Source of the DNA: Commensalibacter oyaizuii
GTDB taxonomy: Bacteria > Pseudomonadota > Alphaproteobacteria > Acetobacterales > Acetobacteraceae
Length of the DNA stretch: 64,000 nt
Direction of reading: 5' to 3'
Assembly (NCBI RefSeq): GCF_029953265.1
Contig: NZ_JASBAO010000001.1
Coordinates: forward strand, 496,001-560,000
Below are positions 45,246 to 63,546 of the stretch, piece after piece. The first letter of the stretch is position 1; the number at the start of each line of letters is the position of its first letter. The notes beneath the pieces were generated by a model that did no database searches, was not told the origin of the DNA, and saw nothing but the letters and a program-made list of their open reading frames with translations. The translations under genes and the position numbers were made by a program.

Positions 45246-46496
45246 TCAACCTGCTAACACTTTATAAATCGTCTGAGTTAGATGGCTCAACTCGGACGAT
45301 GAAATTGTAAAAGCAGGGGTTAAATATATTATATTTCTAAAGGGCCTAATCCATACATGTTGAGCCAAAAACTGTTGTTTTAATAGATTGATATTTGTAA
45401 TTTTGTATAATTCTACTACCCCAATGGCTCCTTTCACCCTCACGTTCTTAACCTGATCCAGCTGCTGACAGGGGGCAAGCTCTTGTTGTAATTGAGATTC
45501 AATAGATCGAACGTTACCAAACCAATCATAGTTGTTGAATAAGTCCAAAGAAGCATTCCCACAAGCACAAGCCAAAGGATTAGCCATAAAGGTTGGACCA
45601 TGCATTAATGCGTGCGTATCCTGATCTGATAAAAAACCATTATAAACATGATCTTGGGCAATGGTTGCTGCCAATGGCATCGTTCCACCACTTAATGCTT
45701 TCGATAAAGTTATAATATCGGGAATAATTTCTGCCTGATTACAAGCAAATAAACTGCCAGTTCGTCCTAATCCTGTAAAAATTTCGTCGAAAATTAACAA
45801 AATATCATAATGGTCTGCTTGCTTACGTAAAAAAGATAAAACTTCAGGTTCATGAAATAACATTCCACCCGCACCCTGAACTAGAGGTTCCACTAGTATT
45901 GCAGCGATTTCATGATGATGATGCTCTAGAAAATTGACAAAATATTTCTGTAATTCAAGAGTAGATGGCAAAGCTGATATATATTGTTTTGGTAAAACCT
46001 CTTTAAATAAGCTGTGCATTCCCTCATCTGGGTCGCACACAGCCATTGTTGCCAAAGTATCACCATGATATCCCCCGTAAAAAGACAGAATTTTTGTCTT
46101 ATTTAGTTGGTTATGATTAAGCCAAAATTGAATGGCCATTTTCATGGCAACTTCGACCGAAACTGATCCTGATTCAGTAAAAAAAACTTTATTTAAAGAT
46201 CCTGGTAGTAAATTACTCAGCTTTTCAGCCAACATTAACGCTGGTTCATGAACAATTCCGCCAAACATAATATGTGGCATTTTTTCAAGCTGGCTTTTAA
46301 CTTGATCTGCAATATAGGGATGATTATATCCATGACACGCAGTCCACCACGAAGCAATACCATCTATAAGCTCTGTACCGTCTTTTAAGATAATACGAGA
46401 ACCTTGTGTTTGCTCCACAATAATGGGTGTATTACAGGTTTGCATTTGAGTATAAGGAAGCCAAATATTTTTAAAAATTGATTGAGACATTACCAT
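45246..46496 (-). CDS. bioA: Adenosylmethionine-8-amino-7-oxononanoate aminotransferase
   Basis: PLP enzyme that makes 7,8-diaminopelargonate (DAPA) from KAPA with SAM as amino donor. The 416-residue protein has the class III aminotransferase features IWLPYTQMQT, DGIASWWTACHGYNHP, GSVSVEVAMKMA, YGGYHGDT, LLIFDEIFTGLGRTG and the PLP lysine in LSKALSGGTMPLAA. SWW and YTQM are typical of BioA as opposed to other transaminases. Start may be 46496 or two codons later at 46490. It is divergent from bioF over about 70 bp. Confidence 0.96.
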   Translation of the reverse strand: MVMSQSIFKNIWLPYTQMQTCNTPIIVEQTQGSRIILKDGTELIDGIASWWTACHGYNHPYIADQVKSQLEKMPHIMFGGIVHEPALMLAEKLSNLLPGSLNKVFFTESGSVSVEVAMKMAIQFWLNHNQLNKTKILSFYGGYHGDTLATMAVCDPDEGMHSLFKEVLPKQYISALPSTLELQKYFVNFLEHHHHEIAAILVEPLVQGAGGMLFHEPEVLSFLRKQADHYDILLIFDEIFTGLGRTGSLFACNQAEIIPDIITLSKALSGGTMPLAATIAQDHVYNGFLSDQDTHALMHGPTFMANPLACACGNASLDLFNNYDWFGNVRSIESQLQQELAPCQQLDQVKNVRVKGAIGVVELYKITNINLLKQQFLAQHVWIRPFRNIIYLTPAFTISSSELSHLTQTIYKVLAG

Positions 46497-46567: not shown

Positions 46568-47755
46568 ATGAGTAAATTTGATCATTTTTTTCAAGAGTCG
46601 TTACAATATAGACAAGAAAGAGGCATTAAAAGGCAGTTAAAACCCATTAACTATACAGATTCATTACATATCAATCATAAAAATACTGCGTATATTAATT
46701 TTTCCAGTAACGACTATCTGGGGTTTTCTTTTAATAATCATTTAAAACAGTTAAGTCAGTTATATATTAGAAATTACGGTGTAGGATCAGCTGCATCACG
46801 ATTAATTACGGGACATACCGAACATCAAGATGATCTTGAAAGAAATCTTGCTCGGTTTTTGGGAACAGAGGCAGCCATCATCTTTGCCTCCGGATGGCAG
46901 GCCAACGTCGCAGTTATTGCGTGTTTATTAGAAAACCTGCCCAAACCTGTATGGGTCATTACCGATAAATTAAACCATGCCAGCTTGCATTATGGATGTA
47001 AAGCAGGCCAAACAAAGCAAATTCGTTTTCATCACAACGATATGCAACATTTAAAGGAGCGTTTAGAATTTATTGCTGATGAAAAAGGAACAAAACTTAT
47101 TATTACTGAGACCATTTTCAGTATGGACGGAGATCAAGCTGATTTACAAACTCTTCGCCAGCTGGCAGATCATTATGATGCCTTTTTGTACTTAGATGAT
47201 GCCCATGCTAGCGGAGTTTTTGGCCATCAGGGGCAGGGACTTGCCCCTAGAATCGCTGATCTTACCATGGGTACATTCAGCAAAGCCTGGGGCAGTTTTG
47301 GGGCTTATATTGCCGGATCAAAAGCATTGTGTGATTGGTTAATCAATTATTGTTCTGGATTTATACACACGACAGCTTTGCCTCCTTCAATCATAGGCAG
47401 TATTCATGCCGCACTGGAATTGATACCTAATATGTCTGATGAACGTGAATATCTGTATCGTCAATGTCACCGTATTAAAAATAAACTATCTTCTTGGGGA
47501 ATAGAAACAGGGACCTCTACATCGCAAATTATCCCCTTAATTATTGGATCTGCTAATTATTCTGTTCAACTGGCACAAAAGCTACAAAATAAGGGATTAT
47601 GGATCATGCCAATACGACCACCAACCGTTCCACAAAATAGCAGCCGACTGCGACTGACAATCAGTGCTGGGCATACAGTTGACGAAATTGATTTTCTGCT
47701 TGAAACAATTTATCAATCTCTTCATTTTAATCCCGAATTATGGCAAGCATCATGA
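46568..47755 (+). CDS. bioF: 8-amino-7-oxononanoate synthase
   Basis: PLP enzyme condensing pimeloyl-ACP (or -CoA) with alanine to KAPA. The 395-residue protein shows INFSSNDYLGFSFN, GVGSAASRLITGHTEHQDDLE, the catalytic segment LDDAHASGVFG and the PLP lysine in GTFSKAWGSFGAYI, then STSQIIPLIIG. The ATG at 46568 fits the family start MSKFDHFFQ; a reading from 46478 would add 30 residues and run into bioA. Its stop overlaps the next start as ATGA, coupling it to the downstream hydrolase. Confidence 0.96.
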   Translation: MSKFDHFFQESLQYRQERGIKRQLKPINYTDSLHINHKNTAYINFSSNDYLGFSFNNHLKQLSQLYIRNYGVGSAASRLITGHTEHQDDLERNLARFLGTEAAIIFASGWQANVAVIACLLENLPKPVWVITDKLNHASLHYGCKAGQTKQIRFHHNDMQHLKERLEFIADEKGTKLIITETIFSMDGDQADLQTLRQLADHYDAFLYLDDAHASGVFGHQGQGLAPRIADLTMGTFSKAWGSFGAYIAGSKALCDWLINYCSGFIHTTALPPSIIGSIHAALELIPNMSDEREYLYRQCHRIKNKLSSWGIETGTSTSQIIPLIIGSANYSVQLAQKLQNKGLWIMPIRPPTVPQNSSRLRLTISAGHTVDEIDFLLETIYQSLHFNPELWQAS

Positions 47756-48417
47756 CATCAAAGCCTCAGCTTTTGTTTGTACATGGATGGGGATTTTCAA
47801 AAGAATTTTGGAATAAAATCCTTCCTTATTGCTCCAACTATAAAATACATCTCCTTGATATTGGATTTATCAGTAATCAACCAACATCGGAACAAGAGCT
47901 ACATTCTTTCATATCGCATCAAGATCATATAGTTGCAGTTGGACATTCCTTGGGGTTCTTATATTTATTAAAGCAGTTTCCTCACCGATTTAAGCATTAT
48001 ATTGCGATTAATAGCTTTGCACGTTTTTCAAAAACCGAAAATTTTATTCATGGTATTCCCACACGAATATTAGACCGCATGTCCAAAGGATTAGAACAAC
48101 CAAAAACTGAAACCTTGTCACAATTTTACCAGCAATGTGGTTATACACCCTCATCGTCAATCAAAGATATCAATATTCCATTATTGCAATTAGGATTAAA
48201 ATGGTTAAAGACCGAAGATGTCAGCCATATAATACCATTGATTTCTGATAAATTAACAGTTATTTCATCAACAAACGATCCTGTTATACCCCAAGCAATG
48301 ACAACAGCTTCTTTTCCGACACAGCATATTCATTGGGTCGACAGTCATACACATTTATTACCAATAACCCACCCTAAACTTTGTGTAACTCTTATTCAGC
48401 AAAATGCAATGTTATAA
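47752..48417 (+). CDS. bioH: Alpha/beta hydrolase in biotin operon, probable pimeloyl-ACP methyl ester esterase
   Basis: Small alpha/beta hydrolase of 221 residues. Visible are LLFVHGWGFSKEFWNKI (HGWG oxyanion loop as in BioH), nucleophile elbow VAVGHSLGFLY, an Asp in SSTNDPVIP and the terminal His in DSHTHLLP, giving a complete Ser-Asp-His triad. Position decides the likely role: it lies between bioF and bioC-bioD with ATGA and TAATG overlaps, so it should be the esterase that releases pimeloyl-ACP from its methyl ester. It is shorter than E. coli BioH (256) and clearly diverged, so it could equally be one of the BioG/BioJ/BioV-type replacements. Confidence 0.78.
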   Translation: MTSKPQLLFVHGWGFSKEFWNKILPYCSNYKIHLLDIGFISNQPTSEQELHSFISHQDHIVAVGHSLGFLYLLKQFPHRFKHYIAINSFARFSKTENFIHGIPTRILDRMSKGLEQPKTETLSQFYQQCGYTPSSSIKDINIPLLQLGLKWLKTEDVSHIIPLISDKLTVISSTNDPVIPQAMTTASFPTQHIHWVDSHTHLLPITHPKLCVTLIQQNAML

Positions 48418-49817
48418 TGACTACCTATAAAAACAAAATTCGCAACGCTTTTGATAAAGCTCATGATTATAATCGCTCAGCACACGTTCAAAAGATTGTC
48501 GTTCGTCAATTAATTGCAAAAATTAAAAAACTTTATCAATATCGACCACATCCTGTTTCAATTCTTGAAGTAGGATGTGGAACAGGGTTTTTGACTCAAG
48601 AGCTATTAAAATTATTTCCAACAGCTCAGTTTACGATAACAGATATTTCTTCGAATATGATTGAGTATTTAAAACAGAACTACAAAAATACTACAAGCAA
48701 TATCCATTTTGAAGTCATGGACGGGGAAAATCCTAGTAAAAATTATCATTCTTTCGATCTTATTTGTTCAAGCCTTGCATTTCAATGGTTCGAAAATCTG
48801 CCGACGGCATTACAACAACTGAGTAATTTACTGACACCAAATGGGTATTTAGTATGTTCTACGTTAAGCGAAGGAAATTTTATCGAATGGAAGCACCTTT
48901 ACGAAAGTAATGGTTATTCCAACTCTTTTCAGCAATATCCATCTATCGATAGGTTGCAAACCTACTGGCCATCTGACCATGGACATGGCTATTGGGAAGA
49001 GGAAAAAATTATCGATCGTTCCATCAGTGGTTATCAGTTCATCAAGGATCTACGCTCTATCGGTGCGCATACACCACGTAATATGCATCGCCCTTTATCC
49101 GCAGGAAGACTGAGAAAAATTATTGATCAATTTGATACAAATTATGGCTACACGACTTATCAGATTGCGTATGGAATTTTTCAACGCTTTGCCGCAAAGG
49201 GGTATTTCGTCACGGGAACCGATACGGATGTTGGGAAAACTTTTATTTCCGCCTGTCTGGTGAAATTACTAAATGCATTATATTGGAAGCCCATTCAAAC
49301 AGGATTAAATTGTGATCCAGGCGATACAAATACAATTTGCAAATTGACAGGTTTGCGAGATCAACAAATCATTCCGCCCTTAATCGAATTACAACATCCG
49401 CTATCACCTGAAGCAGCGGCAGAGATAGAAAACATTAAGTTAGATATTCATCAAATGAACTTTACCCTTAACGACCCATCAAAAACATATATAGTCGAAG
49501 GGGCAGGGGGAATTTTTGTCCCAATTGCAGAAAATCAATTTATGATTGACTGCATGAAGAAAATAAACCTGCCTGTTATTATTGTGGCTCGAACCAGTTT
49601 GGGTACGTTAAACCATACTTTGTTAACCATAGAATGTTTACGACATCATCATATTCCTATCGCGGGAGTTATTTTAAATGGCAGTTCCAATCCTGCAAAT
49701 AAAAAGGCTATTGAGCGTCATGGTAAAGTAAGAGTTATCGCCGAAATACCAAAAGCAGAAACGGTTGATGCCCGAACTATTAAGGATTTTTGTAAAAAAC
49801 TGTCGTTATTCAATTAG
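48417..49817 (+). CDS. bioC-bioD: Fused malonyl-ACP O-methyltransferase (BioC) and dethiobiotin synthetase (BioD)
   Basis: A single 466-residue frame with two biotin enzymes. Residues 1 to about 255 are BioC: NAFDKAHDYNRSAHVQ, SAM loop ILEVGCGTGFLT (49-60), ICSSLAFQWFEN and LRSIGAHTPR, all typical. BioD begins about residue 261 with GYFVTGTDTDVGKTFISACL (P-loop), followed by KPIQTGL, IVEGAGGIFVPI and VARTSLGTLNHTLL. No stop, start signal or linker of note separates them. BioC makes malonyl-ACP methyl ester at the start of the pathway; BioD closes the ureido ring near the end. The start overlaps the hydrolase stop by one base. BioB is not in the window. Confidence 0.93.
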   Translation: MTTYKNKIRNAFDKAHDYNRSAHVQKIVVRQLIAKIKKLYQYRPHPVSILEVGCGTGFLTQELLKLFPTAQFTITDISSNMIEYLKQNYKNTTSNIHFEVMDGENPSKNYHSFDLICSSLAFQWFENLPTALQQLSNLLTPNGYLVCSTLSEGNFIEWKHLYESNGYSNSFQQYPSIDRLQTYWPSDHGHGYWEEEKIIDRSISGYQFIKDLRSIGAHTPRNMHRPLSAGRLRKIIDQFDTNYGYTTYQIAYGIFQRFAAKGYFVTGTDTDVGKTFISACLVKLLNALYWKPIQTGLNCDPGDTNTICKLTGLRDQQIIPPLIELQHPLSPEAAAEIENIKLDIHQMNFTLNDPSKTYIVEGAGGIFVPIAENQFMIDCMKKINLPVIIVARTSLGTLNHTLLTIECLRHHHIPIAGVILNGSSNPANKKAIERHGKVRVIAEIPKAETVDARTIKDFCKKLSLFN

Positions 49818-62598: not shown

Positions 62599-63546
62599 AT
62601 GTCGATTAAAAGAATTGTTGTGCATCATGCCCCAACCAAATCGCATGATCATATTGTAAATGCGTTACCTAAACCTGATTGGATTAAAACCAGAATACGC
62701 CAGTCCTCTGTTTTTGAACAAACCAGCAATCTGGTTAAAAATCATAAACTAAATACGGTTTGTACAGAAGCAGCATGCCCTAATATTGGTGAATGTTGGT
62801 CGCAACGTCATGCAACCGTTATGATACTTGGCAGTATTTGCACCAGAGCATGTGCATTTTGCAATGTCGCAACGGGACGCCCAAACCCCATCGATCACGA
62901 AGAGCCTGAACGCGTTGCCAAGATGGTTCAACAACTAAGCTTACGTCACGTCGTTATCACTTCTGTTGATAGGGATGATCTTCCTGATGGTGGGGCACAA
63001 CATTTTTCAAATGTTATTCATGCAATCAGAAAAGCTTTACCAACAGTAACAATTGAAATTCTGACCCCCGATTTTTTAAGAAAAGATGGGGCTTTACCAA
63101 TCATCAGTAAAGCAAAACCTGATGTATTCAATCACAATATGGAAACTGTCCCGCGTTTGTATCCGACCATTCGCCCTGGGGCACGATATTTCCAATCTAT
63201 GAAATTACTTTACGAAGCTAAATTATTGCAACCCGACGTATTTACAAAATCAGGATTAATGGTTGGACTTGGTGAAAATAAAGAAGAAGTCTTGCAAGTT
63301 ATGGACGACTTACGATGTGCTCAAGTTGATTTTTTAACCATAGGACAATATCTTCAACCAACGCCAAAACATGCTGCAGTTAAGGCATATATCCATCCAG
63401 ATATATTCGAAGAATATGCCCGTATCGCACGTGCCAAAGGCTTTTTACAAGTCAGTGCATCCCCAATGACCCGTTCCTCTTATCATGCTGATGCAGACTT
63501 TGAAATACTTAAAAATAAACGCCGCATTTTATCTGTAACAAATTAA
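62599..63546 (+). CDS. lipA: Lipoyl synthase
   Basis: Radical SAM enzyme that inserts two sulfurs into octanoyl groups to make lipoyl cofactors of 2-oxoacid dehydrogenases. The 315-residue protein has the auxiliary cluster Cys in [12 protein letters not shown], the radical SAM motif CTRACAFC, then [15 protein letters not shown], and the conserved RSSYHAD whose Ser ligates the second cluster. It follows trpC by about 60 bases and precedes the START-domain gene, as in many alphaproteobacteria. Confidence 0.97.

Follow-up and report, generated by a model that had tools for sequence, protein, structure and literature searches.

A fused bioC-bioD gene in Commensalibacter oyaizuii, shared by many relatives and several distant bacteria

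In the genome of Commensalibacter oyaizuii, the malonyl-ACP O-methyltransferase BioC and the dethiobiotin synthetase BioD were found as one fused protein of 466 aa, encoded by a single gene, i.e., bioCD (48417..49817, + strand). Positions are those of the window, the whole analyzed stretch of 64,000 nucleotides (contig NZ_JASBAO010000001.1, positions 496,001 to 560,000). Because many relatives and several distant bacteria share the fused gene, it is an ordinary, stable joining of neighboring genes and not an oddity peculiar to this genome. The best overall explanation is, very probably, an ordinary bifunctional biotin enzyme that arose by read-through of adjacent genes and was kept for coupled synthesis, with its halves working independently.

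The fused gene and its two halves

The bioCD gene runs from ATG to TAG as a single open frame with zero internal stops, and the same register of the opposite strand is riddled with stops. An alternative opening of the frame was found at TTG 48381; with ATG 48417 as the start, however, the gene shares bases with the stop codon of the preceding gene (TAATG). The halves were recognized by profiles, a structure model, and fold matches. The first half, residues 1-257 (48417..49187, +), matched the BioC family TIGR02072 at residues 12-256 (179.2 bits, E 1.1e-52, profile 2-243 of 244). This was its top-scoring family, at a score slightly below the curated cut-off of 184.95 bits, and the Zymomonas homologue is also below that cut-off (153.8 bits). 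By position, fold, and family alignment, the first half is clearly to be read as BioC despite the sub-cut-off score. The second half, residues 261-466 (49197..49814, +), matched the BioD family TIGR00347 at residues 264-421 (149.1 bits, 1.2e-43, above the cut-off of 83.3) and Pfam AAA_26 at residues 261-452 (1.5e-58).

The SAM-binding loop of BioC occupies residues 49-60, i.e., ILEVGCGTGFLT, with EVGCGTG at 51-57, and the P-loop of BioD, GTDTDVGKT, lies at residues 267-275. An earlier note on this DNA had described a complete BioC and a complete BioD in one uninterrupted frame, with the SAM loop at residues 49-60 and the P-loop near residue 266; the stop-free frame, the near-full profile matches, and the motif positions bear this out. 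In an alignment with 18 fused relatives, D76 of BioC was invariant, and so were the glycines of the SAM loop and the P-loop, K291, D303, and E361 of the BioD half. These last three residues presumably have the catalytic roles of their counterparts in E. coli BioD. The short stretch that connects the P-loop helix of the BioD half to the following strand reads ALYWKPIQTG, a motif common to many other bacterial BioDs.

Judged from sequence, the N-terminal half would methylate malonyl-ACP and so start pimelate synthesis, and the C-terminal half would close the ureido ring to give dethiobiotin. When the 2.41 Mb genome was searched for further bioC and bioD matches, nothing was found except one weak match to the methyltransferase region of the fused protein. 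By that search, bioCD is the lone match for either gene and hence the sole source of both activities.

The halves meet at the junction GIFQRFAAKGYFVTGTDTDVGKT, with about three linking residues. In the monomer model (mean pLDDT 90.8, pTM 0.90), three residues separate the last strand of BioC (residues 246-257) from the first strand of BioD (residues 261-267). In the Foldseek search, the best fold match of the BioC part was the solved BioC 8x8j, and the BioD part matched the solved structures 3of5 and 4wop. None of the 50 matches listed spanned both parts. BioD is normally dimeric, so the fusion probably renders BioC dimeric as well.

The biotin operon

The genes are ordered bioF, BioH-like esterase, and bioCD, with bioA divergent. 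The bioA gene (45246..46496, −), which diverges from bioF, scored 535.6 bits with TIGR00508 (cut-off 405). The bioF gene (about 46568..47755, +) likely starts with ATG at 46568 and scored 405.2 bits with TIGR00858 (profile 2-364 of 365), below the cut-off of 426.45 bits. It is followed by an alpha/beta hydrolase gene (47740..48417, +; Pfam Abhydrolase_6), of which the start may be ATG 47752. The bioF stop overlaps this ATG (ATGA), and the hydrolase stop overlaps the bioCD start. As expected, these overlaps fit a translationally coupled operon.

Against the BioH family TIGR01738, the hydrolase scored 51.1 bits, far under the cut-off of 206.95, and its relatives scored 22-46 bits; it was not filed as BioH. 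A sequence search of the PDB gave no match for it. Ser70, Asp180, and His205 were invariant in six of six aligned sequences. These hydrolases, 208-225 aa in length, lie directly upstream of bioCD or bioC at all six loci. The genes bioG, bioK, and the operon bioH likewise immediately precede bioC, with an overlap (PMC3494674). Because of this matching position, the gene was read as a probable pimeloyl-ACP methyl ester esterase. With its Ser-Asp-His set, it probably functions like BioH, and the small upstream hydrolases are possibly a distinct esterase clade.

The bioB gene was found at G000:C1:1463277, about 0.9 Mb from bioCD. The compact biotin cluster proposed earlier is thus right for bioA, bioF, the esterase, and bioCD, and does not extend to bioB. 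The biotin synthase model gave a weak match at 62833-63345 (31.6 bits vs a cut-off of 225); this region probably encodes another radical SAM enzyme rather than bioB. The BioR operator TTATMKATAA, searched with at most one mismatch, had 26 matches in the window against 20.4 expected and zero between bioA and bioF, so BioR regulation is unsupported.

Distribution and origin of the fusion

The whole fused protein was found in one stop-free frame in 76 of 397 genomes of the family, Acetobacteraceae, belonging to 17 genera. In the genus itself, all nine sampled genomes carry it, the eight others at 51-61% identity and with the same junction. Among named records of the family, fused genes were found in Commensalibacter, Acetobacter, Gluconacetobacter, Komagataeibacter, Novacetimonas, and Asaia. 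Outside the family, six genera had fused records, i.e., Zymomonas, Azospirillum, Bordetella, Achromobacter, Pigmentiphaga, and Pusillimonas. The earlier note had called such a fusion less familiar, suggesting that it is unusual; with members also in Zymomonas, Azospirillum, and Alcaligenaceae, it is instead standard in a large part of the family and present beyond it. In the open-access literature searched, judged mostly by titles and abstracts, no description of a BioC-BioD fusion was found.

The junction had the same form, with a zero-to-short linker, in 39 of 39 fused family members inspected. In the wider comparison of named records, linker length varied among fused members. Many of the 397 family genomes gave no strong match to the fused protein. 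In a sizeable group of other acetic acid bacteria in the family, including Gluconobacter and its neighbors, bioC and bioD are separate but adjacent, and overlap in places. In three split members of one family genus (L043-L045), bioC and bioD are in-frame with at least one stop codon between them, and some members of other groups (L177-L181) are likewise in-frame with one or more intervening stop codons. A small change therefore separates the fused and split states. Genomes G416 and G736 were taken as fused candidates from equal open-frame lengths and proved to be split on inspection.

A family tree with 63 rows requires three changes between the fused and split states. In a wider quick tree, rooted with cyanobacteria, nine changes were counted, and at least five of these are forced by well-supported branches. 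One larger group, which includes split members, unites the fused members from Acetobacteraceae, Azospirillum, and Alcaligenaceae. This pattern fits either of two histories, one early fusion that was re-split several times or repeated fusion. That the fusion arose independently several times, a question of origin and not of function, is quite possible, if short of probable. The alternation of fused and split members with its count of changes, and the differing linker lengths, speak for multiple origins. However, one early fusion followed by several re-splits explains the same trees, and horizontal transfer blurs the count of changes, as where Zymomonas stands beside Commensalibacter. In the quick tree, the Zymomonas bioCD genes (L075 and L076) group with Commensalibacter (SH-aLRT 97). 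As Zymomonas does not belong to the acetic acid bacteria, such a placement suggests that its bioCD was acquired by horizontal transfer.

Retention of the fusion and comparison with known systems

Pimelate synthesis begins with the BioC step, and the BioD step comes just before that of biotin synthase. The substrate of BioC is malonyl-ACP and that of BioD is 7,8-diaminopelargonate; between them are two fatty acid synthesis cycles, an esterase, BioF, and BioA (PMC3494674). In an explanation by read-through, bioC would have lost its stop codon where bioD lay next to it in the same direction, giving an old fusion that some lineages may have re-split later. Both folds would tolerate strand-to-strand joining, and the fusion would be harmless. 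One polypeptide would then ensure equal, 1:1 coupled synthesis of two enzymes of which very little is required. Most likely, the halves act independently, with no intermediate handed across. The fusion would thus have been retained because it is harmless and fixes the co-synthesis of two scarce enzymes. Its long persistence across two proteobacterial classes could also mean a specific benefit beyond co-synthesis.

A physical role of the fusion is unlikely, i.e., that attachment to the BioD dimer holds BioC in a soluble or restrained state, or that the halves sense each other, e.g., the ATP or SAM status, and so tune the first committed step to the end of the pathway. The short junction, the high pTM, and the distribution over many genera would suit such a role. 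Only B. cereus BioC has been reported as soluble in E. coli, and it blocks fatty acid synthesis (review PMC11089781), which would also suit it. However, Gluconobacter and its neighbors, which are close relatives, manage without the fusion. The junction showed neither an additional domain nor a conserved motif in the linker, and the predicted packing of the halves depends on an alignment that, at 18 sequences, is shallow. A still more doubtful idea is a rigid regulatory device, in which the nucleotide or substrate state at the pathway end would alter BioC activity at its start through the BioD dimer; the loss in Gluconobacter and neighbors would then reflect a changed biotin need.

Substrate channeling between the active sites was rejected by pathway order. 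It is very unlikely because the two steps are not consecutive, as the earlier note had argued, and nothing was found in its favor. Co-expression, which the note had proposed instead, is the better guess. A sequencing or assembly error that erased a stop between two genes, suggested by the existence of split relatives, has a negligible chance and was rejected, since the congeners carry the same junction at 51-61% identity and the fusion is also present in named records of six genera from beyond the family.

The finding matters mainly for annotation. The fused gene of Azospirillum brasilense (L183 3941-5350; NZ_CP012917.1 525290-526699) is annotated for its BioD half alone, and Azospirillum plasmid records (PLSDB) label the fused gene as 'bioD: dethiobiotin synthase'. 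Because these fusions are named dethiobiotin synthase only, BioC seems absent, and a reader or pathway model may call biotin auxotrophy. A BioC-BioD fusion may merit a line in annotation guidelines. The scattered fused and split states also offer a natural test for any benefit of joining enzymes of non-consecutive steps.

The same fusion in A. brasilense (WP_035682570.1, NZ_CP012917.1) is 41.6% identical to the C. oyaizuii protein and has the order bioF, hydrolase, and bioCD, whereas its bioA and bioB are downstream on the same strand. Zymomonas mobilis (L076) also has this fusion, with the order bioF, esterase, and bioCD and 4-base overlaps. Its fused gene is sister to those of Commensalibacter in the quick tree, although the bacterium lies outside the acetic acid bacteria.

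Among characterized systems, the BioG-BioC fusion of Bacteroides fragilis is comparable, as neighboring genes of a biotin operon with non-consecutive steps are joined. It is functional in E. coli, where both halves work and replace both E. coli functions (PMC3494674). Its partner, however, is the esterase BioG placed upstream of BioC, with a linker-like NLAPAAAASS, and among the Bacteroides then compared, the fusion was found in B. fragilis only (PMC3494674). BioWF is likewise a natural two-domain fused biotin enzyme, but the BioW and BioF steps are consecutive (PMC9544090). Fused biotin enzymes, i.e., BioGC and BioWF, are thus already known as a kind.
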